Virus record (IMG/VR): IMGVR_UViG_3300014819_000037
Location: 1 to 31,091 of that record
DNA length: 31,091 nt
Source of the DNA: a virus
Direction: 5' to 3' (one strand)
The notes under the pieces were generated by a model. It was not told the DNA's origin and made no database searches. It worked only from the letters and a program-made list of their open reading frames with translations. Positions within the stretch are counted from its first letter, which is position 1; the number at the start of each line of letters is the position of its first letter. Made by a program: the position numbers and the translations under genes. Shown piece after piece: positions 1 to 19,867 of the stretch.

Positions 1-3000
1 TTCCAAGATCATTAATAGTGTATATTCCTACCGATGATATGTTGTAACTGTAGGAAGCAGAGTTTGCTTCACCACCAACTGTAAGAATAGATCCAGAACC
101 AAAGTATTTGCTTGTATATTTTTCAGTAATAGAACCACTAATTGTGAAGAGATCAGTAGTTTCTGGTTGTTTTGTGACAAATGCTGCAGATGATGCGCCG
201 CCACGAATTGTGGAGATTGAACCAGAACCAGAATATGTAATGCCAGCAAGATTTGCAATTCCAGCAGAACCAAAGAATTTGAGAAGACCGAATGGATAAT
301 AAGTGGTTGTGTCTTCAATTGAACCATAGTTAAAGAATCCATCGCCAAGATTTCCAATATTCCCATAATTAACTGTAGTTCCAGAAACAGTAATTGCACC
401 GTAATCAGAACTATCAAATGTTTTAATTGAAGATGTATTATAATTGTATGCAATCGCTGCAGAAGAATTACTAATTGCGAAGAGTGTTCCAGAACCTTTA
501 GTAATTCTTACAAATGCTGTAGCAGAGACGCCACTTACAGTATAAAGATTGGTATCTCTGTAGATGTAAATTTGTGGTACTGGTTGTGCTTGAGCAGTTG
601 TTGCAGCACCAGAAATATTGATAGATCCTGTGGTTTGATGACTAAATGATCTCTTTGCAATGTTGTAAGAGCCATTGACTGAAAGAGTGCCATATGGATA
701 ATTATTTTTTGTGTCAATAACAGAACCGTAATCAATTCCAACGTCACTACCAACAAAAATTGTTCCATAATTTGAAGTTATATCAGCAATGTTGCTGACT
801 AAACCATAATTATCAGTAGAGAATATTGTTATTGAAGAAGAATTATAACTGTATACTGTAGAGTTAGTAACTACCCCAACTTCAAATAGTGATCCAGTAC
901 CAACAAAAGAAGGACTTTGTTTTGTTAATGCTGAACCATAAACACTAAACAGAGATGTTGATGTATCTGTTCTAACACTATCAATTCTATTTTGCTCTTT
1001 CGTACTGAATGCAAACAGATTACCAGAACCAATATACGAAGGTATTCTACAGAATTGAACAGAAGCAGAACTGCTTACAGATACACAACCTCTGTATGGG
1101 AATTCTGTAGTTGTATTAATAATATAACCACTATCAATTTTACTACCACTACCAGCAGTAATAAATCCATAATTAGTGGTTGAACCAGAAGTAATTACAT
1201 CACCATAATCAGATGCGGTAAAGTAATTAACTGAATTAAAATCATAATTAAAACTTACGGAAGAATTGGAACCGCTGATTGTAAATAGAGATCCAGATCC
1301 AATATATGATGGTCTTCTATAGAAGATTGTTGACGCAGAACCAGTTGCAATAATTGCTGGTTTTCCGTAAATAGAATTGAATTGATATTCAACAGGAACA
1401 TAAACTTGTGGTGTTGGTTCAATAAATGAAACTGTTGCAGTTCCGATAGTTGATAGTATTCCAGATCCAACAACAACTTGTGATTTTTTAGTTGTGGAAG
1501 ATCCTGTTACATTCAGTAAACCATAAGGATAAATGGTTCTCGTGTTAATAATTACACCATAATCAAATCCAACATCACTACCAATAATTACAGAACCATA
1601 ATTTGCTGTATCGCCACTAGTAATAATTGTTCCAGCATCAGATGTTGAGAATACTGATACAGAAGAAGAATTATAACTATACGTTTCAGTACTTGTAGGT
1701 GTTTGTGATATTTCATAATTTCCTACATAAATGTTTCCTGAAGTAGTATAAGAACCTCTGAACAGTACAGATGCATTACCTTGAATCCCGAAGAGAGATG
1801 TTGATGTATCTGTTGTAAGAAGGGGTAAAGCAAAATCTGCAGATCCTTTGAATGTAAAGAGTGATCCAGAACCAACTTGCTTGTAAATATTTTGTTTTGT
1901 CGTAACTCCAGAACCAGAAATACTTGTAGAACCGTAAGGTCTAATTTGTCCAGTATGAATTACATATCCATAATTAATTGCTGCAATATTGAATTCTGAA
2001 ATTGAACCATAATCGGATGTAGATCCATAAGAAACAATATCTCCATAATTCTCTGTTGAGAATGCAATTGTTGAAGCAAGAGTATAATTATAAATGACAG
2101 AGAATTTACATCCACTATCTTTATAGATTAATCCAGAACCATTATATGCGTAAGAAGTTTTATATGCAGTTGTTGCAGAACCATTAATTGCATATAATCC
2201 ATAATCTCTTTCAACATAAATTTGTGGAATTGGTTCAATAAATGCAACTGTTGCTGTTCCAGAAATTTTATTTGAACCAGATCCATTATATGCTGGTGGC
2301 GTGCGAACTTCACTACACGAACCAGAGTAAATAAATTTACCGTATGGATAAACATAATCAGTATTGATGATGTAACCATAATCAATTTCTTGATCACTAT
2401 CAATACCAATAGAACCATAGTTAGTTGTTGAACCAGAAGTTATAATATTTTCAAAATCAACAAACGAGAATGTATTGATTGAAGAATTTGAATATCTGTG
2501 TGTATACTTGTTTGTAGATTCACCATACACATAACTAGTACCAGTACTAGTAAGTATTAAAGTAGTATTAGATGATGAAGAACCATTGATTTCAAAAAGA
2601 TCAGTAGTTTCTTGTTGTTTTGTAATAATAGATTCTGTTTGTGCAGATCCACCAAATAATTTTTTAGTTCCAGAACCAGAATTAATGTATAAATGTGTAT
2701 AATCAGAATCTGCAGATCCATAGAAAACTCTATAACCCTTATATGGAAGATCAGATTCTGCTACAATTAATCCATAATTAATTCCAGAAGTTGATCTTGC
2801 ATTAATCGTTCCATAATCAATTGTAGATCCATTTTCAACAACACTACCAAGATCCAATGTGGAGTAAAGATCTTCAGATTGTGTAATAAAAATATATTTT
2901 CTTGAGAAAGAATTATTTGACTCAAGATCAGAATATATAAATCCAGATCCATTATAAGGATATGTGGAATTAAACGTAATGTTACAAGATCCAGTAAAGG

Positions 3001-4130
3001 AAAATAACTCAAATCCTTCAGCAAGAATTTCTTGTGTAGTCGGTTCTGCAAATGTGATAGATGCAGATTTAAATGTACTAATTTGACCAATTCCAGTATA
3101 ATCAAAAGTTCTAATGACAGGTTCAGAAGTTCCAATAATATTGGTAAGGTTTTTACCATCAGTGATACTTTTATCTACAAGGTATTCATAATCATATGCA
3201 CTTGTAAATATGTCTGTTATTAGACCATAATCGGTTGTAGATGCATAATCATTAATTGCTCCCAGGTCAATAGAATTAATACTAAATGATTTTGTTCTAT
3301 AGTATTTGTATGCAAATGCTTCATTTAAGCTTCCAGAGGTGTAAAGAACGTCTGAAGCAGTATATGTGTATGTTTGATTAATTCTTGGTTGAATAGTGTA
3401 AGCAGAACCAGAAATCGTAAACAGAGAGGTTTCTGATTTAATTTCAATAGTATTTGTTTTTGATTGTGATGATCCCGAAATAGTTGAGAACGATCCAACT
3501 CCAACATAAAGTTTTGGTAAACTTATTTCAGCAGAAGAATCAAATCTATATGAACCAAATCTAAATGGATATTCAAGTAATCCATAATCTTGAATAGGTT
3601 CTAATACTTCATTGTTAATAAATCCATAATCAAAATAAATTGAATATAAATCTAAATCACCATAATTTTTATAATCTGGTACTTGAGTTTCTGTAAATGC
3701 TTGATAGGTATAATTATGAGAATTATTTGATGTACCTGTAATATTAAATAATCCAAATCCAGATGGAGCGGGAGTAAATAAGGAATATGTGCTAATATTA
3801 TTAAAAGCAAATAATGTACCTTCACCAATAATAATTGGAGAAGATGAATTAAATTCTATGCCGCTTCTAATAATAGAAATAGCACCAGACCCATTATAGG
3901 ATGGTGCAAAATTATATTCTGTATACGAATACAGGAATTCGGATCCAAATGGATACTTATATGTCTGAATTAAATCGTTTGCATAATCAATTCTATTTGT
4001 TTCTGTTTCTGATATTGCACCATAATCAAACGCATTTGTGGTTGTAGAGTAAATACGTCCATAATCAGTGGAGTAAGGTGCATTTACAACAATAGAATCG
4101 TAATTATATGTAACTGGACCAGTAATTAAT
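1..4130 (-). repeat. tandem protein-coding repeats, ~400 bp unit, ~819 bp super-repeat
   Basis: Codons for the YPYG-like turn recur near 3950, 3565, (3180, degenerate), 2740, 2342, 1933, 1523, 1097, 695 and 291, a spacing of about 385-440 bp. Two other motifs recur at about twice that spacing. EPxPQ-type segments lie near 3045, 2230, 1405 and 580. Segments of the type ETTDLF / TSTSLF lie near 3425, 2598, 1793, 955 and 150. The region is therefore a degenerate A-B dimer repeat of about 272 residues. It lies wholly inside one open frame. Two dozen or so D/N-Y-G motifs are spread through it. Confidence 0.85.
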
Positions 4131-4636
4131 GGTAATGTTCCACCATAATAATATTTTGCTGTATCTGATTCTCCTTCAAAATTAATATTTCCGTTTCCAA
4201 TGTATGCATTTGTGTGTCGAGGGGGTCCCGTAATTCCAGGAGCAACAATTAGGGTAATATCACCACCCATTTCAAATAAAGTACCGTTACCTACCCAAGT
4301 AAAAATTATATTATTTTCTGACTTATAATTATAAACTCTAATATTTCCTGCGACAATATTATTGTAAGATGCAGAGGATTGTGAACTTCCTCCAGCAGTA
4401 AATATTTTATTGGTATATGAAGCATCAATAAATTTGTAATCAAAATATTCATAAGTAATATCTAAATTACCTAAATCAATAAATGTATCAATTGATTGAT
4501 CAATAGTAGAATAATCTACAATTGTTATAATTTCTGAATTATTAGTTTTGTAACTGAATACAAAATTAGGTACAACATCTCCTACTGACGAAATCAAAGT
4601 TTCGCTAATTTCTGAATTGTAGGAAAATACAACCAT
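1..4636 (-). CDS. giant repetitive virion/adhesin-like protein, 3' end outside window
   Basis: From ATG at 4636 the minus strand stays open to base 1, giving 1545 codons plus one base and no stop, so the true protein is longer. A good Shine-Dalgarno (GAGGT) lies about 8 bases upstream. The first ~200 residues (MVVFSYNSEISETLIS onward) are less repetitive. From about residue 190 onward the chain is made of ~135-residue repeats with two or three D/N-Y-G-x-I strands, a Y-P-Y/F-G turn, then Gly-Ser-Gly blocks such as GSGSLFTISGS. Composition is Ser/Thr/Gly/Tyr/Ile-rich, with few Lys and very few Cys. No transmembrane segment or catalytic motif was seen. It follows structural and fibre genes on the same strand, so I infer an extended beta-rich tail fibre or virion-surface protein. 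I do not recognise a named family, and the function is inferred from context and repeat architecture only. Confidence 0.88.
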   Translation of the reverse strand, partial: MVVFSYNSEISETLISSVGDVVPNFVFSYKTNNSEIITIVDYSTIDQSIDTFIDLGNLDITYEYFDYKFIDASYTNKIFTAGGSSQSSASYNNIVAGNIRVYNYKSENNIIFTWVGNGTLFEMGGDITLIVAPGITGPPRHTNAYIGNGNINFEGESDTAKYYYGGTLPLITGPVTYNYDSIVVNAPYSTDYGRIYSTTTNAFDYGAISETETNRIDYANDLIQTYKYPFGSEFLYSYTEYNFAPSYNGSGAISIIRSGIEFNSSSPIIIGEGTLFAFNNISTYSLFTPAPSGFGLFNITGTSNNSHNYTYQAFTETQVPDYKNYGDLDLYSIYFDYGFINNEVLEPIQDYGLLEYPFRFGSYRFDSSAEISLPKLYVGVGSFSTISGSSQSKTNTIEIKSETSLFTISGSAYTIQPRINQTYTYTASDVLYTSGSLNEAFAYKYYRTKSFSINSIDLGAINDYASTTDYGLITDIFTSAYDYEYLVDKSITDGKNLTNIIGTSEPVIRTFDYTGIGQISTFKSASITFAEPTTQEILAEGFELFSFTGSCNITFNSTYPYNGSGFIYSDLESNNSFSRKYIFITQSEDLYSTLDLGSVVENGSTIDYGTINARSTSGINYGLIVAESDLPYKGYRVFYGSADSDYTHLYINSGSGTKKLFGGSAQTESIITKQQETTDLFEINGSSSSNTTLILTSTGTSYVYGESTNKYTHRYSNSSINTFSFVDFENIITSGSTTNYGSIGIDSDQEIDYGYIINTDYVYPYGKFIYSGSCSEVRTPPAYNGSGSNKISGTATVAFIEPIPQIYVERDYGLYAINGSATTAYKTSYAYNGSGLIYKDSGCKFSVIYNYTLASTIAFSTENYGDIVSYGSTSDYGSISEFNIAAINYGYVIHTGQIRPYGSTSISGSGVTTKQNIYKQVGSGSLFTFKGSADFALPLLTTDTSTSLFGIQGNASVLFRGSYTTSGNIYVGNYEISQTPTSTETYSYNSSSVSVFSTSDAGTIITSGDTANYGSVIIGSDVGFDYGVIINTRTIYPYGLLNVTGSSTTKKSQVVVGSGILSTIGTATVSFIEPTPQVYVPVEYQFNSIYGKPAIIATGSASTIFYRRPSYIGSGSLFTISGSNSSVSFNYDFNSVNYFTASDYGDVITSGSTTNYGFITAGSGSKIDSGYIINTTTEFPYRGCVSVSSSASVQFCRIPSYIGSGNLFAFSTKEQNRIDSVRTDTSTSLFSVYGSALTKQSPSFVGTGSLFEVGVVTNSTVYSYNSSSITIFSTDNYGLVSNIADITSNYGTIFVGSDVGIDYGSVIDTKNNYPYGTLSVNGSYNIAKRSFSHQTTGSINISGAATTAQAQPVPQIYIYRDTNLYTVSGVSATAFVRITKGSGTLFAISNSSAAIAYNYNTSSIKTFDSSDYGAITVSGTTVNYGNIGNLGDGFFNYGSIEDTTTYYPFGLLKFFGSAGIANLAGITYSGSGSISTIRGGASSAAFVTKQPETTDLFTISGSITEKYTSKYFGSGSILTVGGEANSASYSYNISSVGIYTINDLG

Positions 4637-4650
4637 TAATACTACCTCTA

Positions 4651-4681
4651 AATTAAAAAGGGATTACCCATAGGCAATCCC
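4651..4681 (-). terminator. rho-independent terminator-like hairpin before the giant gene
   Basis: On the minus strand, GGGATTGCC pairs with GGGTAATCCC (positions 4681-4660) through a 9-bp stem containing one G-T wobble and a ~4-base loop. TTTTTAATTT follows directly. It lies about 34 bases after the stop of the 393-aa gene and ends only a few bases before the Shine-Dalgarno of the giant gene. No TATAAATA box lies between hairpin and start. The giant gene therefore seems to depend on read-through or on a promoter I cannot see. Confidence 0.72.
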
Positions 4682-4715
4682 TCAAACTGAATAATATAAG
4701 TAATTTTATCAAAAA

Positions 4716-5897
4716 TCAGTCAAGGCTAACATTCAGAGTGATCTTAATTTGGTCGCCGTTGTTTTGAATGGGATATGGACCATTTGTAAATCTTTCAGCA
4801 AACAGAATGCTTGGCAGCAGAGTTGCATTACCAGCACCCGCAAGAGCAGGAGATGTTGTAAAACTAGTACTAGTTGTGCTGAATACAGTATAGTGACCAG
4901 GAGTTACAGTAGAACCACCAGAACCAGCGGCAATATAAATTACGTCACCAACTTGAAGGTTGTGTGCAGTAGCACCTGTAGATACTACAGACCAATTCAA
5001 ATCAATACTGGAGTCAGTAGCAACCTGAATGTTATCAGTCAAAGTAGAAGACAGATAAATTCTTCTAAGAGCATTATCAACACCAGTAATTGTTGTACCA
5101 GAAGCAACAGCAGTGTTACCAGTTATTCTTTGGCCTACAGTAACATTGTCCATTACGTTTGCAACGTTAGGAAGAGTAATATAGTTATTACCAACAACGC
5201 CAATACAAGGATTACTATTATCACCTTTTGCAGAAGTGCCATTAGCAGTAGAGGTAGCAGCATCTGCTACACCTTGAATGGCAACAGGCATATTCTGTGC
5301 TCTGGAAAGATAATAACCATAAATGTTTCCAGCAGCGGCAGTGAAAGTAAATACTTGCTCGGGATATGTTGCAGTTGTAACACCACCACTAAAACTAATA
5401 GCACCAGAAACAGTACCAGTGTTTGCCGTATTTAAAGTAATGAGTGATCCACTTACATTACTTACTTTAGCACCAGAAGCAATACCAGTACCAGAAACAA
5501 TGTTACCTACGCTAACTGTACCAGTAAGACCAGTCACAGTAATTTGAAATGCGCCAGAAGAACCAGTGGAATTAGTAGAAGAAGCTACAGGATCTGAAGC
5601 AGTAGTAACTGTCCAGCGATTGCCATTAAGTAAAACTCCGTAGTTAGCAGTATAATCTTGATCAGAACGATTATTTACAAGTAGTGGATAACCAGTGGTT
5701 GGAGCAGAACCATAACCATTTGTATTGGTTGAGTTGTATGGTTCAAAATAAGCAGTTGCCGAAGGAACATCACCTTCAGCAGGAGTTGTGTTAGAAGTAA
5801 AAAGCTTCAGAACCAAGTTTCTTGGGATCTGATGTGTCGCATTTAGCAAAGTGCGAAGCGAATCTACCTCACCAATATTTGGGACTAAAAGAGCCAT
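4716..5897 (-). CDS. virion structural protein (fibre/decoration type) with two inserted beta modules
   Basis: This 393-aa protein resembles a common marine T4-like phage structural protein as I remember it. The N-terminus has MALLVPNIGEVDSLRTLLN followed by LVLKLFTSNTTPAEGD. The C-terminus has FAERFTNGPYPIQNNGDQI, then a short beta strand. Residues ~118-172 and ~238-300 look like two related beta modules; the first has VGNIVSGTGIASGAKV and the second VGQRITGNTAVASGTTI. The outer parts can be read as one domain interrupted by them. The ATG at 5897 is preceded by a strong GGAGGAAC Shine-Dalgarno and by a perfect TATAAATA late-promoter box at 5947-5954. No signal peptide or transmembrane segment was seen. 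It probably sits on the tail, baseplate or fibre; its exact location is unknown. Confidence 0.85.
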   Translation of the reverse strand: MALLVPNIGEVDSLRTLLNATHQIPRNLVLKLFTSNTTPAEGDVPSATAYFEPYNSTNTNGYGSAPTTGYPLLVNNRSDQDYTANYGVLLNGNRWTVTTASDPVASSTNSTGSSGAFQITVTGLTGTVSVGNIVSGTGIASGAKVSNVSGSLITLNTANTGTVSGAISFSGGVTTATYPEQVFTFTAAAGNIYGYYLSRAQNMPVAIQGVADAATSTANGTSAKGDNSNPCIGVVGNNYITLPNVANVMDNVTVGQRITGNTAVASGTTITGVDNALRRIYLSSTLTDNIQVATDSSIDLNWSVVSTGATAHNLQVGDVIYIAAGSGGSTVTPGHYTVFSTTSTSFTTSPALAGAGNATLLPSILFAERFTNGPYPIQNNGDQIKITLNVSLD

Positions 5898-5946
5898 GTA
5901 AAAGTTCCTCCAAGGAAAAAATTGATTTTTGTAATTAGTTCAAATC

Positions 5947-5954
5947 TATTTATA
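5947..5954 (-). promoter_or_regulatory. T4-type late promoter box TATAAATA
   Basis: TATAAATA reads on the minus strand 50-57 bases upstream of the ATG of the 393-aa gene. It overlaps the TAA stop of the 233-aa gene. T4 late promoters consist of just this -10 element, recognised by gp55 with the sliding clamp. A start about 6 bases downstream would give a ~43-base leader containing the GGAGG. Confidence 0.75.
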
Positions 5955-6651
5955 ATTTTATTTTCAGTGCGATTGAAAATTTATTAATTCCCGCCGCTGA
6001 AATAACATTATAATTAAGAATGTCGCCAGCGTTAAGAACTTTATTCCAAGCACTTAAATTATCGCTGGTATTTTTATTTTGAGTTACTAATGAGGGTCTA
6101 TTTCCCCCACATATTGTAGTAACGTTTGGATAATCAGCATATGATGATTTTTTAATATCCAAAACTAAACTACCAATTTTATCAGCAACCAATACCCAAG
6201 ATTCTATCACACCTGTGACATCAATTGCAAGACAACCTTTATCACCAATAGTGATTGCACTTGAACCATAATCAACAACATAATTAATAGTTCTTGTTAA
6301 ATCAGCAGTATTTGCTAAAGCAATACCAAAAAAAGGAACATTACAGGGAGCAGTAGCAAACGTAATCTGATTTCCTGATACAGAATATCCTACACCAGGC
6401 TGCAATATAATGTTATTTATAGATATGATAAGTTGTTGATCATTCAAAGCATTATACAAAATTCCACCAATTCTAATATCAAAAGTTTTTTTAATGCAAT
6501 CAAATTGACCAGAAAGATCATCAATAATTAAATTTTGATATTGAATTGATTTTGGTGGAGATTGATAATCAATACCGACCCTATAAAGATCTGGATTTTC
6601 ACCAGTTACCAAATAAGATGGTTGATTTAATGTTACTTGATAATCAGACAC
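5950..6651 (-). CDS. tail-fibre-like virion structural protein
   Basis: This 233-aa protein starts at GTG 6651, whose G is shared with the TAG stop of the 110-aa gene (TAGTG). An AGGGG Shine-Dalgarno lies about 8 bases upstream. The C-terminal ~85 residues contain ESWVLVADKIGSLVLDI, then SSYADYPN, a Thr/Ser-rich segment, AWNKVLNAGDILNYNV and a final beta strand FSIALKIKL. This resembles a C-terminal beta module I recall from many marine phage tail-fibre and structural proteins, where it may contact surface glycans. The N-terminal half contains a strand-rich segment (IQYQNLIIDDLSGQFD). No enzyme motif was seen. Translational coupling with the 110-aa gene suggests the two proteins act in one structure. 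Confidence 0.8.
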   Translation of the reverse strand: MSDYQVTLNQPSYLVTGENPDLYRVGIDYQSPPKSIQYQNLIIDDLSGQFDCIKKTFDIRIGGILYNALNDQQLIISINNIILQPGVGYSVSGNQITFATAPCNVPFFGIALANTADLTRTINYVVDYGSSAITIGDKGCLAIDVTGVIESWVLVADKIGSLVLDIKKSSYADYPNVTTICGGNRPSLVTQNKNTSDNLSAWNKVLNAGDILNYNVISAAGINKFSIALKIKL

Positions 6652-6983
6652 TATGTTACCCCTGGAGTTACTGTAGCAATTCCTTCTACTACTCGGGTTT
6701 TAATACTAGCAGGAGAAGTTAAAACAATATCATAAACATAACGTTTAGGATCTAAAGTTGCAGTAGTTGCAGCAGGTAACGACAAAGAAATTATACCTTT
6801 AATTCTATCAACAAATCCTACTGTAAGAGGAACAGAATTAGAAGTATAATAACTTTTTTTCATTTTTGCTTCTGCAGTATATCCAGTTAGATTCAGATAC
6901 GAACCATCAAAATTTCTAATAGTAAAAGTTGCAGAGAAATCTGTATTTTTCTCAATGACAATATTGATGGTTATAGCAGACAT
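6651..6983 (-). CDS. small beta-rich structural protein (BppU-N-like fold suspected)
   Basis: This 110-aa protein begins MSAITINIVIEKNTDFSATF, then has a strand pattern with DGSYLNLTGYTAEAKMKK and GIISLSLPAATTATLDPKRY, and ends VVEGIATVTPGVT. This layout is like small all-beta proteins of phage baseplates and fibres (the N-terminal domain of baseplate upper protein BppU is the nearest type I can name). That comparison is from memory and tentative. Its stop overlaps the next start by one base. Its own late-promoter box and a Shine-Dalgarno-like GGAAGG lie in the hairpin directly upstream. Confidence 0.8.
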   Translation of the reverse strand: MSAITINIVIEKNTDFSATFTIRNFDGSYLNLTGYTAEAKMKKSYYTSNSVPLTVGFVDRIKGIISLSLPAATTATLDPKRYVYDIVLTSPASIKTRVVEGIATVTPGVT

Positions 6984-6987
6984 TTAT

Positions 6988-7021
6988 AAAAAAAGACCTT
7001 CCTTTTATTTATAAGGAAGGT
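6988..7021 (-). terminator. terminator-like hairpin with embedded late promoter
   Basis: On the minus strand ACCTTCCTT (7021-7013) pairs with AAGGAAGGT (7004-6996) in a perfect 9-bp stem around an 8-base loop. TC and then seven T residues (6994-6988) follow. It lies just after the stop of the 63-aa gene, so it would end transcripts of the glycosyltransferase pair. The loop holds TATAAATA and the 3' arm holds GGAAGG, about 13 bases before the ATG of the 110-aa gene. Confidence 0.8.
7006..7013 (-). promoter_or_regulatory. T4-type late promoter box TATAAATA in hairpin loop
   Basis: This is a perfect TATAAATA on the minus strand, formed by the last base of the hairpin 5' arm and seven bases of the loop. 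It is 23-30 bases upstream of the 110-aa gene. A transcript starting about 6 bases downstream would begin inside the 3' arm and so escape the terminator fold. Confidence 0.72.
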
Positions 7022-7028
7022 TTGATTA

Positions 7029-7220
7029 TTATTCTTCAGGCTTTTGTTCTGAAGGTTCTACAGCTTCTGATGGTTCTAAAATACTCAATGCTTCAAGAGC
7101 ACCTTTAAGTTTTAATGCCATTTCTTTTTTTGTAGTCAATTGACTTTCAAGATTGCCAATTTCATCAACAATAGTATTAAATTGATTTGTAAAATTTTCT
7201 TTAAGTTCTTGTGGTGTCAT
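7029..7220 (-). CDS. small coiled-coil protein
   Basis: I chose the ATG at 7220 because a GAGGAAAATT Shine-Dalgarno precedes it at normal spacing; a TTG at 7232 would add four residues but lacks such a site. The 63-aa product has a heptad-like helix over residues ~5-48 (NTIVDEIGNLESQL, then KKEMALKLKGALEAL) and an acidic Pro/Glu tail (EPSEAVEPSEQKPEE). The Shine-Dalgarno overlaps the TGA stop of the glycosyltransferase, so the two genes are coupled. I recall similar short proteins in cyanomyoviruses but none with a known role. A scaffold or structural helper is possible. Confidence 0.75.
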   Translation of the reverse strand: MTPQELKENFTNQFNTIVDEIGNLESQLTTKKEMALKLKGALEALSILEPSEAVEPSEQKPEE

Positions 7221-7228
7221 AATTTTCC

Positions 7229-8410
7229 TCAAATAGATTGTAAATATGTGAGCATTTTTTTAGCAACGTTATCCCACTGATATGCGGGATTTTGAGTCAT
7301 CTTAGCACATGCCTTTGCTTGTGTTGCATAATATTTTTTATTTGAATATAATTTATTCAGTTTTTCTACTACACTATCAATAGAAACATAAGCTCTATCA
7401 ATACCATAATTTATATCTTTTCCCATAAAGGCAATGTCAGCAAGTTCTCCACAATCTGCAAAAATTTCAGCACTTGCTGCATAATTAGGAATAATTTGTG
7501 GGCAACCAGTTGCTGCCATTTCAAATGGTACTAGACCCCAACCTTCACCCTCAGAAGTATTGATACCAACATCACAAGAGTTATAAACAATATTTAAAAC
7601 TTCTGGAGTAATATTATTTTTTTCTGGAGTAATATCAGTTCCCGAAAGATATAATCTTCCTTCAGAATCAACACCATTTTTTGCCATTTCCACATTAAAA
7701 AGTGGAACAATATCCCAACCACAATCTTTAATCCCCATATGAAGATAAAGTTTAGTATTCGGTTTTCCAACAGCAAATTTTGCAAATGCCATGATGGTTA
7801 AATCAATTCTTTTGCGTGGTTGATTTCTATTGCCATTAAAAACAATAAAATCATCTTTTTTCATGCTGCCAATGATATCTCTACATTCTTGTTTATTTTT
7901 TCTATAAAAAATATCACTATCAATACCATGCTCTAAAGTTTCAATTCTGCCAGTATAACCAGCTTCTTTAATTACATTAGCAGCAAAATTTGTATATGTA
8001 ATTGAAAGATCAATATCATTAAGGAATTCCACTACCTCAGGAAACCAACCACCACCATCTACAGGAAAATAAGCAACAAACTTAAATTCATCTTCTTCTT
8101 TATATTTTTTTAAAATTTCCCAGTAATATTTAATAATCCAAACATCATTAAAGGCGATAATAATATCTGGCTTAATAGCATTATAAAGTTCTTCAAGATA
8201 CTTAAATCCATATGGATCTACTTGCTGCCCACTTTTTGTGGATGCCGCAAAAATGTTGAATGGGAAATCATGCTTTTGTCCAAAATAATTAATGCCCATC
8301 ACATTGGTGTTAAATTCTTGATGAATTCTTGTTAAAATAGATTCAGTAACTCTGCCAAATCCACTTGGAATAACACAGTCACCTAACCATAATATTTTCT
8401 TTTTACTCAT
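7229..8410 (-). CDS. GT-B fold glycosyltransferase (GT4-like)
   Basis: The ~393-aa protein opens with KKILWLGDCVIPSGFGRVTE, the Gly-rich N-terminal loop of GT-B glycosyltransferases. NGNRNQPRKRIDLTIMAF marks the start of the C-terminal Rossmann domain. TSEGEGWGLVPFEMAATGCP contains the EX7E pair (Glu289 and Glu297) that binds the sugar nucleotide in GT4-type enzymes. It likely transfers a sugar from a nucleotide donor; donor and acceptor cannot be read from the sequence. I chose ATG 8410 (MSKKKILWLG), since the TATAAATT box at 8445-8452 would place a transcript start around 8439. Alternatives are ATG 8419 and GTG 8434 (401 aa); none has a clear Shine-Dalgarno. Its place among fibre genes suggests glycosylation of a virion protein, but host-surface modification cannot be excluded. 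Confidence 0.85.
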   Translation of the reverse strand: MSKKKILWLGDCVIPSGFGRVTESILTRIHQEFNTNVMGINYFGQKHDFPFNIFAASTKSGQQVDPYGFKYLEELYNAIKPDIIIAFNDVWIIKYYWEILKKYKEEDEFKFVAYFPVDGGGWFPEVVEFLNDIDLSITYTNFAANVIKEAGYTGRIETLEHGIDSDIFYRKNKQECRDIIGSMKKDDFIVFNGNRNQPRKRIDLTIMAFAKFAVGKPNTKLYLHMGIKDCGWDIVPLFNVEMAKNGVDSEGRLYLSGTDITPEKNNITPEVLNIVYNSCDVGINTSEGEGWGLVPFEMAATGCPQIIPNYAASAEIFADCGELADIAFMGKDINYGIDRAYVSIDSVVEKLNKLYSNKKYYATQAKACAKMTQNPAYQWDNVAKKMLTYLQSI

Positions 8411-8444
8411 AAAAACCATAAGGGGGTTAGACACATCATACTAT

Positions 8445-8452
8445 AATTTATA
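8445..8452 (-). promoter_or_regulatory. probable late promoter variant TATAAATT
   Basis: TATAAATT on the minus strand differs from the T4 late consensus at the last base. It lies in the 36-60-base gap after the fibre gene stop (8471) and 35-42 bases before ATG 8410. The same variant occurs before the 47-aa gene at 30636-30643. Confidence 0.45.
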
Positions 8453-8470
8453 AGAGTTGTCAAGAACGAA

Positions 8471-10456
8471 TTATGCGATGCTTCCTCCAATTGTACTATT
8501 AGCATTAAATACCGTTACAACTGCAGTGCCAGAAGTTGCTGCTAATGTAACTGAAGTAACACTAGCACCACCAGCAGATGAACCTGGAGATAAACTTACT
8601 GCTGCAAATCCTGTGGTTGTTGTACTAGCTGTAATATTAATTTGTTTTGTGGAGGCGTTAGTATTTCTTAAATAAAGTGTAATAACTCTACCTGCGGTAA
8701 GATTACTGATATTAATTGTTCTTGCAGTACCAGTGGCACTCTGTACATATGCATAATATGAAGTGGTTGCTGAATCTACTGTAGCATCTGCATCAGTAGT
8801 TGAACTTGAATTGCCGTAAGTTTTATTTGTAAGTGTATCGGATGTTGCCCTACCAACTAAAGTATCATTAGTAGTTGGTAAATTTAATGTTCCAGTATTT
8901 ACAATACTAGAAATAGTTGGTGTGGTTAAAGTTTTGTTAGATAATGTCTGTGTTCCATCAGTTGTGACTATTTCTCCCGCAGCATTAGTAAACCCCTTTC
9001 CTAAAACTTGAGTACTTGAAAGAACAGTAGTTCCATTAATTTGATAAGTTTTAGTATTTGCAATATTTAAGTTTTCTGTTGATGACCAACGAGTTCCTGT
9101 ATTAGAATATGTGAAAGTAATTCCTGTTGTTCCTAATGTAATTCCAGCACCATCAACTAAGGCCGATGTTGCTGCACCATCAGCAAGAATAATATTAAGA
9201 TCGTCAATACTTAATACGGTAGAATTAATTGTAGTTGTAGTTCCATTGACTGTCAAATCACCGTTAACTGTGACGCCAGAAGCAGTTAAATTTCCAGTAA
9301 AAGATGCTGAAGTACCACTTAAACTACCCAAAAGATTTAAATTTTTATATGCAATAATTTTTTCAAACCCATCACTTGTTTGAAAATCTAAGTAACTATT
9401 TGAACCTTCTTTAATACTTAAAGCTGGATTAATATTATCTTTAACTGTAATATTGACACCTTGATTTGTCAAATCAATTGTTGAACCTTTTACTTGAAAT
9501 GAATTATTAATTGTTGTTGTTCCAGTTCCAATAGAAGAACCAATATTAACTCCACTATTATTAGCTAATAGTTTAAAATTATTAACTGATGATAAAATTT
9601 CACCACCATTTACATTAACTGTACCATCAAAATACGACGCTAAATTTCTGACTCTAAATGTTCCACTAACAGTAGCAGAACCCATAGTAATGTCAGTCGC
9701 CGCACCAAAAGCATTCACAGTAGTTGCTACGGTATTATAAAGATTTTGTGTTGTTTGAGATCCAATTATTGTAGGACTTTTTATAGTACAAACTCCTGTA
9801 GTTGCGCCAATATTTAAATTAGTACTAGCACCAAAGGCATTGATAGTTGTTGCATTATAATTAAAAACATATCCCGTAGTTGCTATAGTATCAATTACAC
9901 CTGAATTTATATTTACATTTCCAGAAATAGTGACTGTTCCAGAAACATTTAATGTATTCAGAAAGGAAGTAGTATTAACATATAAGTTTCTCCATCCTTG
10001 ATTAGTACTACCCAAATCAAAAGTATTATCTTGATTGGGAATTATGTGTGAGTTTAAATCTGCATTGAAAACAATATTATCAGTATTTAAATCGCCAAAT
10101 GTTAATGTGCCATTAGTATCATTACCAGCTTTAAAAGTAATATTTCCATCAGCAGTAATATCACCGCCAACATATAAATTTTTACTAACTCCTAGTGTAG
10201 TGGAATCAAATTTATAAATCCCTAAATCAACTGCACTATCAAAAGATAAAGATGGTAAAGATTTAGTACCAGTTTTAAGTTGAATGGTTTGTCCAGAAAG
10301 AGTTACTGCGCCAGCAACTACACCATCAATTGAACCTACAATTGTTTTATCTGCAGTCACCAAATATTGACAATCACCAATATCCGTACCAATTAAATTA
10401 ATTAATTGACGTTGTTGTTCAAAAGTATTGCTTAATAAAACTTGTCTAATTGTCAT
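8471..10456 (-). CDS. tail-fibre-like virion structural protein
   Basis: This 661-aa protein is low in charge, rich in Thr/Asn/Gly/Ser, and made of short beta repeats. In order it has an N-terminal helix-like segment (FEQQRQLINLIGTDIGD), then TADGNITFKAGNDTNGTL, then NTFDLGSTNQGWRNLYVN at ~145-165. Two copies of a TTxNAFGAxTxxxxG segment follow at ~205-265, then LTVNGTTTTINSTVLSIDDL at ~410-430, and a DGTQTLSNKTLTTPTIS turn near 505-515. Such segments are typical of cyanophage long-fibre and fibre-like proteins as I know them. The C-terminus (from ~590) is Thr/Ser-rich beta strands. No chaperone-type peptidase or enzyme motif was seen. Its start overlaps the 67-aa gene by 11 bases, which implies co-translation. 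It probably forms a trimeric fibre or fibre adaptor. Confidence 0.85.
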   Translation of the reverse strand: MTIRQVLLSNTFEQQRQLINLIGTDIGDCQYLVTADKTIVGSIDGVVAGAVTLSGQTIQLKTGTKSLPSLSFDSAVDLGIYKFDSTTLGVSKNLYVGGDITADGNITFKAGNDTNGTLTFGDLNTDNIVFNADLNSHIIPNQDNTFDLGSTNQGWRNLYVNTTSFLNTLNVSGTVTISGNVNINSGVIDTIATTGYVFNYNATTINAFGASTNLNIGATTGVCTIKSPTIIGSQTTQNLYNTVATTVNAFGAATDITMGSATVSGTFRVRNLASYFDGTVNVNGGEILSSVNNFKLLANNSGVNIGSSIGTGTTTINNSFQVKGSTIDLTNQGVNITVKDNINPALSIKEGSNSYLDFQTSDGFEKIIAYKNLNLLGSLSGTSASFTGNLTASGVTVNGDLTVNGTTTTINSTVLSIDDLNIILADGAATSALVDGAGITLGTTGITFTYSNTGTRWSSTENLNIANTKTYQINGTTVLSSTQVLGKGFTNAAGEIVTTDGTQTLSNKTLTTPTISSIVNTGTLNLPTTNDTLVGRATSDTLTNKTYGNSSSTTDADATVDSATTSYYAYVQSATGTARTINISNLTAGRVITLYLRNTNASTKQINITASTTTTGFAAVSLSPGSSAGGASVTSVTLAATSGTAVVTVFNANSTIGGSIA

Positions 10457-10649
10457 CGGTAATTTTCTTTAATAATTGCTTGACTTCATCAAGTTCCTGC
10501 TTCAAAGTATTTATCTCGTTTATCATATTCTCTCTATTTGCTTTTGCTTTTATATAAAGGTCATATTCATCACGATTACAATTAATCACAGCACCACTAT
10601 TAAGATCACGATAAAGATTACTATGACCTTCTACTTTCAATCTATCCAT
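10446..10649 (-). CDS. small coiled-coil protein between fibre genes
   Basis: The 67-aa product begins MDRLKVEGHSNLYRDLNSGA and ends in a clear coiled coil from about residue 36 (NRENMINEINTLKQELDEV, then KQLLKKITDDN). ATG 10649 shares one base with the TAA stop of the 2525-aa gene (TAATG), and the 3' end overlaps the fibre gene by 11 bases, so the three are translationally linked. Short proteins of the form 'N-terminal RDxxxGAIxN loop plus coiled coil' occur among marine T4-like structural genes in my memory, with no defined function. Confidence 0.8.
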   Translation of the reverse strand: MDRLKVEGHSNLYRDLNSGAVINCNRDEYDLYIKAKANRENMINEINTLKQELDEVKQLLKKITDDN

Positions 10650-13600
10650 TATGAATTAGCAATTACTCTTAAATCTTCAAGACGTGGAGCAAGTGCTGGA
10701 TTAGATCCAGTAAATACAATTTTAATGGCAAATGCTTTAAATGGTTTTAAGTTAGATGCAGTATAAGAATATTCAATATAAGAATCAAGATCTTCTGATG
10801 ATGGAGATAATGCTTCTAAATTGCTTGGAATTATACTTCCAACATTATCAGAATATCCAGTTACATTAAAATATTGCCAATTAATATTATTCATATCAGC
10901 TGTACTTCCATCTGGTTTAATTTTATAAAGAACTTTAATATCTGTATTATTAAACAGATTTGCAGTAATTTTGCAATTAAGTGCTGTTCCTGGTGTATCA
11001 AGAACAACTTCTTTAGTTACATATTTTGAAGCAGCGGAGCTTCCATATGGATTTGTATCGGGAACAAAAAGAAATCCTCCAGTGTTAGAGACAGCAGAAA
11101 CAGTTCTTCCTGTAACTGGAGAAGTTCCAGCATCATTGTCATTTACAATATCCCCAACTTCAAATTTTGTTGGAGAAGTTAATTTAAGTTTTAATGATCC
11201 AGTTCCAGAATCCCAACCAATAATCACACCACTTTTAACTACAAAAGAAGTTGGAGTTGTAGTTACAGATCCTTGTGTAATGGGAGAAGTAGCAACAAAA
11301 TCACCAATTATATCAATTAATTTTAATTTTTTATTTGCCAAATCTACACTAACAATTTGTGCAGATGCTCCAGATAAAGATTGTGTAACTCTAGTATTAC
11401 TATCTACTGTATTTACAAAATTGCCACCACTAGATGTTGAATAACTAACAATAGCCGATTTAATAGTTTTTGTAGTATTAGTAATTGTATATGCAGAAGA
11501 AGTTGGAAGTATTAATGTCTGTGAAGAAGCACCGTATCTATCTTCATTTCCAGTAGGATTATCTATTCTTGATCCAACTGTGATGATATTAGTTCTATTC
11601 ACATCAATTACTGGAGAAATATTATCTCTATTAGATTTCATTGTAAGTGAATATAAAATAGATCTCTTACCAGAACTTGAAGTAAGACCTCTATAAATTT
11701 CATTATTTTTGGAAGCAATTACTCTGCTATCATCAAAATAATAATTATCACCTGGAGAAATTTCTACAGAAGTTGCAAGAGAATATTCATTAGATGTAGA
11801 AGAATCAACTGCTTTGCCATAAATTGTTTTTATATTATGAGAAATTGAACTTGATGGGAAAGAAAGAGTTTCAATTTGTGATTGAATAATTTGATAAAGT
11901 TTATTGGTGGTGGCACGAACATAATTTCCACCACCAGAACCAGAACCAGTTACTGCAACATTAGCAGTATTCCAAAGTGTAGAATCAATTAAAATGCAAT
12001 ATTCATCTAATCCTACATTACTGATTGAATGAATTCCATTTAATAAACTTACGGGAACACCATAGATATTTGAAGGAGATCCAGTACCAATAATGTCGGA
12101 AAGTATTACAGTATCTCCTGTTTTCATGCCGTGATTTGGATGATTTATTCTAACAACTTTTTGGTTAGATCCAAACAATGATGAAATTCCCAGAGTATTA
12201 TCAATTAAAATTGGATTATTTGGCAAACTTACATATTCTATTTCACTATTAACCAACTCTACAGTAGCAGTTGATTTAGTATCAAATACGCATCTATTTA
12301 CTGTAAATTTGAGGTCTTCTAAAGAATCTTCAATAAAGGAAAAGGAATTTTGTGCCTTATAAATTGATCCCACTCTTGGTTGATTTGAAGCAACAACAAT
12401 ACTATTCAATAATTGATCGCCAACTTTTGAACTATAAAGTTGATAATCAGGAGAAGAACTTTTTACAATCAATGCATAAGTTTTATTATTTTCAAGATAT
12501 ACTGGCGAAGGAAATTTAAAATTTGTTTTTGCAGTAGCATTTGATGAAGTAGAAATGCCCATTTTTACTGAAGGATTTGTAATTCTAATTACAGATTCAG
12601 CAGTGGCGAGGGTATCGCCGCCAGTAATGATTACTGTTGGTGAAGTATAATATCCAGATCCATTATTAGTCACTGTGATATCATAAATTTTGCCATTATA
12701 AATTTTTGCAGATGCAGTTGCAACACTGCCAAAAGATCCGCCATTATCACCAGTAATAGAAATAGTAGTTGAATTTGAAGAATATCCCGAACCAAAATTA
12801 GTAACTCTAATTTTTTCTACAATACCACAATCTTGATCAATATAAAATTTAGTTGATGTAATCAAAGGTGAACGATTAAGTATAATTTCTTCTCCAGCAA
12901 TAAAACTTATTCCATTATGATTGGAAAGAATTAAATTATATCTAGTGTTTACTGAGGATACAGATAGATTTGTTTTTATAGTTCCAGTGGCACCTGAAGT
13001 TTTTCCAGTAATTGTTTCTCCAGCATTAAATGTAATTCCAGTAGGAACATCATTTCCAAGTTTAATGCGAAGAATTGTATCTGGATTTAAAGATGTTTGA
13101 CTAAATGGAATGATATTTCTTGTGGGAATTCCCGCAGAGGTTTCTGTAAGATAAACTGATACTGGTCTGTCCGTATCATCACCAGAAGAATTTGTTTTAG
13201 AATTAAAATAAAGATCAATACTAGATGCAAATAATCCTTCTTCATATCCACTAATGGTAAATGTTTGAGCAAGTGGATCTAATAATCCATCTTGATTGAT
13301 ATTTACTCTAACACCATTGATAGTTTGAACTGTATCATTTGTATCTACAGAATTTCTACTAATATTAGCAGATCTTGTAGATTGATTATTATTTGGCGCT
13401 CCAGAAATTACATATTCAGTTTCAGCAAATGTTTTTACGTCTGAATTAGAAGAACTATTTGTATTGCTAGATGTTAATCTAAAAGTTTTTACTCCAGTAG
13501 TAAAGTTTCTTGGTGTGCTGGAAGTATTATAAAATGTTGTTGCAGAAATTTCCCTATCATATAATTTTTTACCTGCTGCTGGAGCATATCCTGCTGGAAC

Positions 13601-16600
13601 TAAGAAAATACCACTAACATTTCCATTGGTATCTGTAATAATTGATGTACCAAATCCTTTTTCAGCATATCCAGCAATTCCAGTAAATGGAGTTGTAATT
13701 CCCGTAACATCATCTGGATTTACCCAAGAAGAAACTTCAATACCATCAAAAAATGCATATAGACGAGTTCCTGGTTCTAATCCCTTTGCTACAAATTTAA
13801 CAACATTTGTTCGAGCATATGGAATATATGCATTAGATACTACTCTTTGTTGTACAGAAGAATTTGGAGAACCATATGGCGTTAATCTATTTTGAGTACC
13901 ATTTCTAGTTCTTGTTCTTGTTTTACCTTTAATTACAGATGTAACTGTAGAATTAAATTGAGTTGTTCCAGAAGAATTATTTAATGCATAATTTGGAGTT
14001 CCTGTCCAAAGAATTTGCCACTCATTCCAAATACTTCCCCAAAGATTACTATTATTATTTTGAATGGTATCAAATATAGAATTTTCATTTACAATTAATT
14101 CTGGTGATCTATCAGTATCTTTCCATTCATCAATAGCGGGGTCTAAAGTCAATATGCCAGAAAACTTAGAAGATTTTCCTGGATTAATATTAATTGTTTT
14201 TGTTGCATATGGATTACTTACAGTTAATTGTTCTGTAAACGGAAGTGTTAATAATTCCCCCGTTTTCTGATATCCATTTGCAATTCTCTGAGAATCATTT
14301 AGATTTTTTTCAATCAATTTAGTTTGAGATGCATAATATGATGGTCTCAAAACTCCAGTTTGAGTATCAATCGAACAAGAATAATCAAGAGAATTTGTAT
14401 TTCCTACATTATGACCTTCAAAATTATCTACTAAAACGCCATTTTTAAATCTTTCATTTCCTAAAGAATCTCTAACTTGAGTGTTAAAAGTATCTTGTTC
14501 AAGTAAACTTAATACAGTATAATATTCTAATTTTTCAATTCTTTTTTCAAGCTTTCCAATATCTCTCATTGTATAGCGTTTATTGTCAATACTTTTAATT
14601 TGAATATCTTTCAAATCAAAAGTATATGCTGGAATATTGAAATAATATAATAAAAAACCATCAGAAAGTTCTGCTGGTGTTTGGGGATTTAAAGATGGAG
14701 TTCCTTTAGAAACTTTAAATGTGCCATCTTTAGTAATATAAAGAGCATCAATTCTATCCAAATAATATTCATAACCAGTGTAATAAGAAGTTCCATATAA
14801 AGGAAATGTAGAAATTGCGGAACCAGTTCCATTAAATTTTAATGCATTAATTGTAGTAAATCCATTATACCCAGGAAGAACTGTTTCAGTATTAAGCCCA
14901 GTATAATCAGAAACTCTTGGTCTGAAATCAACTACATCACGCAATGAAATTTTTCCATATACACTAGAATTATAATCTGGAATATTTTTATATGTAAAAT
15001 TATCTGTAAATGTATAAGAATTGACAGTAAAATAATCTCCAGTTCCGCTTGAACCAATATGCTTAAAATAATCAAACACTACAAGCATTTTATTTGTGGG
15101 AACAATTGCTCCTGGTTTTCTAATTAATCTTGCAAGATCATAATGAGTATCTCTTTGGCCGCCATCAAAAATAAATCTATCTGTAATGTCTACATCATTT
15201 GCAGTTGCATCTGCTGAAGATGCTGACATATAAACACCTTTGAGTTTATATCCATCAGCATAATTAAGTGGAATTGTTGAATATGAAAATCCTGTTGAAA
15301 TTTGATATTCTTGATTTTCAATCAAAGTTTTTGTTTTCGGTGCTGTATCTGATTTTACTACGGGAGCAATAATTTTATATGCAAGAGTTGCAAATGATGC
15401 ACCTAGATTAATAGTTGCAGATTGAGCATTGCTACCAAGAGTTACTGCTCCACTAAGATCTAATAAATCTCCAGTTTGAGGATTTGCAAAAATCCAATTA
15501 TTTGAAGAATATGATAAAAATGTTTCATTAGTTCCAACTGAAAGAGTTATTGTACCAGATCCATCAAGATTTCCTAAAAATTCTCTTTGAACAGTATAAT
15601 TAATATTAGTGTTATTTGGATCAAGAATTGTAGTTTTTACATTCTTATTTGGTAATGGAAGAAGAAGAGTATTTCCAGAAACACCATTTAGTTTAGATCT
15701 CAAACGTTCTACAGTTTTGGCGGTAAAATTACTCAATATAAAACCATAAACATAAATTCTTGCTGTTGAAGAAGTGCCAGATTTTGTTGCAAATTTGACC
15801 AAATATTTTCTTATTGTTCCAGAATCATCAGTAATTTTAATAATATCACCATTCACAAGATCAAAATCTGGTCTTGAATTTAAATTATCTGAAGTTATAT
15901 AATAGGAATTTTCCACAGCACTGAATGTTGCTCCACCAGCAACATTAAAAGTATCTTGAAGAGATGAAATATCACCAGTAAATGAATTTCCAGTATTAGA
16001 ATTAAAAAAACTTTTGATTAAAGAAGAATCGTAATTAATTACATTATTTTTATTTAAAACTGCAATATAACTTGCTCCAGAACCAGAAGAAGAAGTAATA
16101 GAAACAGTAGGTGATGTATCAAATTTACCAATACTTAAACGAGCTGCTGCTGTAATTTTAATAGATCTTAACTGATTGTTTGATAATGGGTATGATAATA
16201 TAATATTTGAATATCCAATTGCAGAAGTTACATTAGTTCCATTAATATTAATTGTTATTCCACTAGATGATGTATATCCACTACCAAGTGATACTGGTTT
16301 TAAATACGCAATAGATCCATCATCTTCAATAAAATTATAAGGCGTAGATGTTCCATCAAGTTCAGAAAGAATTGTTTCTCCAGATTGAAAAATTCCAGAA
16401 ACTTGTGATAAAATTATTTCATTAGTTTCTGAAGAAAGTAATTCTACAATTCCAGTTGCTCCACTGGTTTGTCCTGTAATAATTTTTCCCTTTGTGAAAT
16501 TAATAGCATTTTTACAAAGAATTTTTGTAAAATACTCTGTTGCAAATAATCCTAATTTATATTGAGAAGAACTTTTATTATATATTTTTGAAGTTGAATT

Positions 16601-19859: not shown

Positions 19860-19867
19860 TATTTATA
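19860..19867 (-). promoter_or_regulatory. T4-type late promoter box TATAAATA upstream of gp8
   Basis: TATAAATA on the minus strand lies five bases beyond the TGA stop of the 2496-aa gene and 32-39 bases before the gp8 ATG. The implied leader of ~25 bases lacks a Shine-Dalgarno. Confidence 0.75.

Follow-up and report, generated by a model that had tools for sequence, protein, structure and literature searches.

The window, the whole 31,091-nucleotide stretch of viral DNA analysed here, carries a giant repeat gene whose product, a tandem array of about ten ~132-residue units, is probably the shaft of a long tail fibre, presumably trimeric, that a T4-like marine phage anchors at its baseplate or close to it. 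A tail-fibre role of some kind is likelier still, and a trimeric shaft with its length set by the number of units is somewhat favoured. The protein belongs to a real, well-defined repeat family, apparently an undescribed variant of an ordinary kind of protein, the phage tail fibre; a literature search found no description of the family, although it is present in named phages.

The Giant Gene and Its Repeat Unit

The gene is a single minus-strand open frame, window 2..4636 with its ATG at 4636, that runs off the contig end, and 1545 residues of its product are seen, with the C-terminus missing. The original prediction, made for positions 1-4130 and thus for most of this gene, described about ten units with DYG, YPYG and GSG motifs, and a profile search confirms them. 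The unit profile was built from six units of L013, a related contig with a full-length giant, and then iterated over the proteins collected. It recovers ten contiguous units in tandem, each of 131-143 residues, over residues 177-1528 (window 53-4108), together with one partial unit, and has no match at E<=1 in 200 shuffles of the protein or in ten other proteins of the window.

All units lie on the minus strand, and each residue range given here opens at the unit start. Unit 1 (residues 177-314; 3695..4108) is followed by unit 2 (309-442; 3311..3712) with the segment ETSLF, unit 3 (443-578; 2903..3310) with EPTTQ, unit 4 (581-712; 2501..2896) with ETTDLF, unit 5 (713-844; 2105..2500) with EPIPQ, unit 6 (849-979; 1700..2092) with TDTSTSLF, unit 7 (986-1128; 1253..1681) with EPTPQ, unit 8 (1129-1261; 854..1252) with TDTSTSLF, unit 9 (1262-1396; 449..853) with QPVPQ and unit 10 (1397-1528; 53..448) with ETTDLF. 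Of an eleventh unit only the start is present (2..52, minus strand) before the contig ends, and it matches the start of a single extra unit at residue 1533 of L013. The N-terminal region holds one partial, diverged unit (residues 27-138; 4223..4558, minus strand), recognised by the same profile, with a W-V-G-N-G-T-L-F-E motif that is common to many relatives.

Every unit has the same layout, namely three D/N-Y-G-x-I motifs, a YP(Y/F)G turn and then GSG/LF-x-I-x-G blocks. The D/N-Y-G motifs are spaced by 12-13 residues, not by the ~14-16 that had been predicted, and the spacing varies within the unit, a 13-residue part coming first and blocks of ~22 residues after it. The consensus of the unit is YSYNESSIEEFESEDYGSITTSGTSTIDYGSITEPSDGEIDYGSIVITETTYPFGLFKISGSASEKKRTFAYVGSGSIFTISGQAEVAVFQSPADESTGLFEISGSAETKFSRSYVGSGSLFSIGDKAESAA, in which conservation is strongest at Y1 and Y3, at 15/28/41 for the three D(Y)GxI motifs, at PFG (53-55), at G105 and at GxL (119-121). 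A repeat pair detected at the DNA level is spaced by exactly 816 bp. A self dot-plot, which had been proposed as a check, gives only a faint signal at the level of raw identity because most units of the protein are only 20-46% identical to each other; a BLOSUM autocorrelation of the protein does recover the repeat, with peaks at lags 268 (z 6.5), 548/550, 416 and 134. The composition is 15% Ser, 11% Thr, 10% Gly, 10% Ile and 9% Tyr, so that S/T/G/I/Y make up ~54%, with 0.3% Cys.

Relatives and Host Signals

In a profile search the window protein matches only phrog_11522 (9 stretches, E 2.6e-27), and the full-length protein of L013 matches the same family in 25 stretches (E 2e-125). The family had been called unrecognised; it has a match, and the function of that match is unassigned. 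No family in Pfam or NCBIfam was above cut-off for the window protein, and a PDB search with the unit consensus and a full-length relative returned no solved structure at a meaningful level. A match to a known, characterised fibre family, which had been named as a test of the prediction, was thus not found in Pfam, NCBIfam or PDB, and the same holds for known solenoid families.

Relatives were gathered from the upstream neighbour of the giant gene, phrog_10467, for which 80 loci were fetched, two of them being duplicates (L015, from the population of the window, and L016, the same contig as L013). Over 13.7 kb (its positions 1-13747), L015, which is IMG/VR contig 3300023179_000956, shows 100% identity to the window, and the two are probably one virus population. 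A giant lies downstream of the partner gene in 69 of the 80 loci, directly adjacent in 65; 11 loci have none there, seven of which hold less than 1 kb in that direction. The 38 distinct full-length giants, six of them named or separately fetched, range from 1321 to 3811 aa, an almost threefold range in one gene slot that is partly due to gain or loss of whole units. The full-length giant of L013, with 3811 residues and 23 recognisable units, has a C-terminal stretch made up of GSG-LF blocks alone. Most full-length relatives, including that of L013, share a short conserved C-terminal tail, typically P.R.[FY]..II, and the window protein is cut before it. Conservation is on average highest over the last 40 residues (63% vs 51% for the middle), and the last 110 are better conserved than the middle in 14 of 23 pairs, so that the ends are only moderately better conserved.

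Five named phages, S-CAM1, S-CAM3, S-SSM7, S-SCSM2R and Sf-FS3, carry the family, and the gene is annotated there as hypothetical protein or TolB. The proteins of S-CAM1 (AOV57854.1, hypothetical protein, 2130 aa) and S-CAM3 (AOV59077.1) resemble the window protein in gene position and in their DYG and GSG-LF repeats, and share with that of L013 a C-terminal P.R.[FY]G.II. The S-CAM1 protein differs from the window protein in a longer spacing of its DYG blocks and in having 5 recognisable 132-aa units rather than 10.

A scan of genome contigs for the partner gene gave three loci, one in a Prochlorococcus single cell and two on MAG contigs, and a giant adjoins the partner in the single cell and in one of the two MAG contigs. 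The member in the single-cell contig (L101, QCHO01000030.1, 997 onward) hints at a host. The other (L102, 9095 onward) lies on a contig binned as Rhodobacteraceae, which may be a binning error. Genes of psbA/psbD type occur in three of 17 contigs of relatives, and a T4-type gp23 is present on the contigs of L013, L018, L038, L042 and L047; the capsid protein of L013 is ~70% identical to its closest counterparts, which come from Synechococcus, Prochlorococcus and Pelagibacter phages alike.

Gene Neighborhood

The giant gene belongs to the tail-fibre cluster found in T4-like marine phages. Upstream of it in the window are gp25, gp6, a gp7-like giant, gp8 and a DUF4815 protein, the homologues of gp25, gp6 and gp8 being in order, as in a T4-like tail module, and between these baseplate genes and the giant come first a gene related to tail-fibre assembly and then a virion structural protein. 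The former (6651..6983, minus strand, 110 aa) matches phrog_1084 and phrog_3304 (L-shaped tail fibre assembly) in profile searches, and its Pfam hits, BppU_N and LtfC-like, are weak and fall below cut-off. The latter (5950..6651, minus strand) matches phrog_10330 and also a tail fibre family. The conserved partner gene, phrog_10467 (4716..5897, minus strand, 393 aa), then immediately precedes the giant. AlphaFold2 gave a fair model of the partner (pLDDT 82.6), which had no match in PDB at E<=0.001; against BFVD the best match was the S-CAM3 homologue, and the other matches at E<=0.001, including phage fibre and structural proteins, had query TM-scores of 0.22 or less.

On the downstream side, which is off the contig in the window, L013 has a phrog_9648 tail protein followed by a very long virion structural protein, and S-CAM3 has a phrog_9648 tail protein, one small gene and then a phrog_9851 tail fibre. 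The giant is thus enclosed by phrog_10467 and phrog_9648 in L013 and S-CAM3, and the window shows the upstream side of this arrangement. Gene order is similar in all five named phages.

All 22 of the aligned loci, L013, L017, L018 and L025 among them, have a GC-rich hairpin with a T run behind it a short way upstream of the giant's start codon, and its stem sequences differ among loci while the pairing is kept. The window copy, between the partner and giant genes (4658..4683, minus strand), has a folding energy of -16.6 kcal/mol (z -3.7). Its appearance is that of an intrinsic terminator or of a processing or stability element just upstream of the giant gene.

Several other features of the window may be recorded. 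The motif TATAAATA occurs at four sites, all on the minus strand (5947-5954, 6414-6421, 7006-7013 and 19860-19867), and three of these precede a gene start by ~23-50 bp, which is where late promoters of the T4 type would lie. Chance alone would give 9 sites, more than the four present, and position is the sole argument for considering them putative late promoters. A glycosyltransferase gene, phrog_2170 (7229-8434), sits in the middle of the tail-fibre cluster and is kept in L013. Upstream of the cluster (8471-10456), a fibre-like protein has an N-terminal (N/S)TFEQQRQ(L/V/I)IN motif, and proteins with this motif directly follow phrog_10467 in other loci (L071, L081-L084, L087, L089 and L093), which suggests a common N-terminal anchoring module.

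Probable Gain, Loss and Exchange of Units

EPxPQ-like and ET(D)LF-like segments had been predicted to occur only in every second unit. In the window protein the former are found at residues 531, 801, 1073 and 1351 and the latter at 402, 676, 942, 1223 and 1492, with segments of the same type 266-281 residues apart (about 272 aa), and they alternate over the last eight units. All 35 splits of these eight units into two groups of four were compared. The alternating split came first in the half that follows YP(Y/F)G (the GSG half), fourth over the entire unit and 26th in the DYG half. As the lowest tail attainable with 35 partitions is ~0.03, this is moderate evidence for a two-type pattern restricted to the GSG half. 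Units also alternate over eight units in L017. Alternation is not a rule of the family, however, because L025 has EPVPQ in three consecutive units, and L013 has one extra unit at residue 1533 that breaks the pattern and is without counterpart in L017, the units that flank it pairing one to one between the two proteins.

The further claim that the protein grew by duplication of a dimeric unit has partial support. Its best form, in which two-unit blocks of 272 aa were duplicated and gene conversion later acted between the DYG halves, is a serious alternative that we nevertheless place below even. It is favoured by the top rank of the alternating split in the GSG half, by the alternation in L017, by the slightly greater likeness of units two apart than of neighbours (0.31 vs 0.29) and by indels of 259-262 aa, whereas the low rank of the DYG half, the single-unit indels of 132-133 aa that also separate close relatives, the extra unit of L013 and the EPVPQ triplet of L025 count against it. 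Given these indels, the extra unit and the triplet, the sequences suggest that the array evolved largely by gain and loss at the level of the unit, sometimes of two units at once, and that duplication of dimers was one contribution and not the rule.

A comparison of the window with L013 points to exchange within the array as well. Across the first units and the genes next to the giant, their DNA is ~80-92% identical, with a low of ~69% at one intergenic boundary, and identity then shifts within the array, at about window 2100-2500, to 97-100%. The likely breakpoint zone (2105..2500) has ~80-89% identity on its 5' side and 97-100% on its 3' side, and the mosaic is most simply read as a recent recombination within the repeat gene. 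A 42-bp stretch over the KQPETTDLFTISGS segment (window 131-207 and 2579-2655; L013 7205-7246) is 95-98% identical at the DNA level between window and L013 units that are otherwise ~30% alike, and it is possibly a hot spot for recombination between units.

Proposed Fold and Place on the Virion

The original prediction placed the D/N-Y-G strands in a beta-solenoid or stacked sheet within a long fibre. The long, repeat-built fibre is well supported because of gene context and relatives, and composition and repetition fit a beta-fibre; the solenoid has fared less well. We regard a single-chain beta-solenoid, in which each (D/N)YG-x-I stretch would be one rung of an intrachain parallel beta-helix, as improbable. 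The regular 12-13 residue spacing of three D/N-Y-G motifs with a YPYG turn and the long, repetitive, S/T/G-rich chain are what such a fold could have, but that spacing is not kept through the unit, no solenoid family in Pfam or PDB matches, and AlphaFold2, run on two units as a monomer with a 140-row alignment, placed no strands (pLDDT 52.6, pTM 0.19). AlphaFold2 usually recognises solenoids well, and a strandless model is what one would expect from a single copy of a chain whose sheets form only with two partner chains. The strandless model fits a chain of that kind, as weak evidence for interchain strands, because the poor alignment (683 columns, 18% mean identity) may explain the low confidence and could give the same outcome.

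Known fibres offer partial parallels. The long tail fibre proteins gp34, gp36 and gp37 of T4-type phages are long, repetitive, beta-rich and encoded among tail genes, as the giant appears to be, and have no Pfam or PDB match to it. The triple beta-spiral shafts of adenovirus and reovirus consist of short strand-turn-strand repeats with a Gly turn and variable loops, their repeat number setting the length; they differ from the giant in repeat length and have no sequence match to it, and the giant has a higher-order 132-residue unit, known from sequence. The corresponding slot of S-TIM4, which lies downstream of gp8 and a VrlC-named gene, holds another large, fibre-like protein, ORF108, a YadA-domain structural protein of 2236 aa that mutates during host adaptation (PMC6224464). 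Its sequence differs and a phrog_11522 profile search of the genome gave no match, so that the slot is analogous and the protein is not a relative. By analogy, the slot would appear to hold host-contact proteins in related phages; the S-TIM4 result itself is not transferable to the phrog_11522 family. The literature yielded no virion proteome from a carrier of the family; virion proteomics is available for S-TIM4 and for S-CREM2, whose genome likewise gave no match to the phrog_11522 profile, and both are without the family.

A fibre or decoration elsewhere on the virion, such as a neck whisker or a capsid surface protein, is a still less probable reading than the solenoid. In S-CAM1 the small gene that comes directly after the giant has been annotated as possibly Hoc-like, and neck genes lie further downstream in S-SCSM2R, but that small gene matches the tail family phrog_9648 in S-CAM3 and L013, tail-fibre and structural proteins follow it, and the upstream genes are baseplate genes. 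That the protein is no part of the virion and serves, for instance, as an adhesin secreted or displayed on the host during infection is very unlikely given the close linkage to baseplate and tail-fibre genes, even though the chain is very long, of low complexity and adhesin-like in composition and proteomic evidence that would place it in the virion was not found.

The fibre shaft is our preferred reading, against which stand the lack of a meaningful match in PDB, Pfam or NCBIfam and the only moderately better conservation of the ends. The (D/N)YG-x-I strands, of 13 residues each, would number three or four per unit and be accompanied by about four strand-turn-strand blocks of the GSG-LF-x-I-x-G kind, each of ~22 residues, and the tandem units would act as repeated spacer modules. 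The chain would most likely be an intertwined homotrimer with strands pairing between chains, and its two ends may dock to partner proteins. The number of units would then set the length of the fibre (at the rises of 0.5-0.9 Angstrom per residue of known fibres, 3811 aa would span very roughly 200-330 nm), and relatives would change that length by recombination between units, with one or two gained or lost, and swap stretches to give mosaics. It can be speculated further, as a doubtful extension, that the 132-residue DYG/GSG unit is a previously unknown trimeric beta-fibre architecture and that unit number is an evolving ruler, with fibre length under selection.

Significance

Fibres decide which cells a phage attaches to, and in T4-like marine phages many of their proteins are still annotated as hypothetical. 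One of the longest of these now has a defined repeat unit, a known gene neighbourhood and, through its family, a natural series of lengths. This series, in part the product of whole units gained and lost, is the most interesting feature, and with it the question of how unit number bears on fibre length and host range becomes directly testable.
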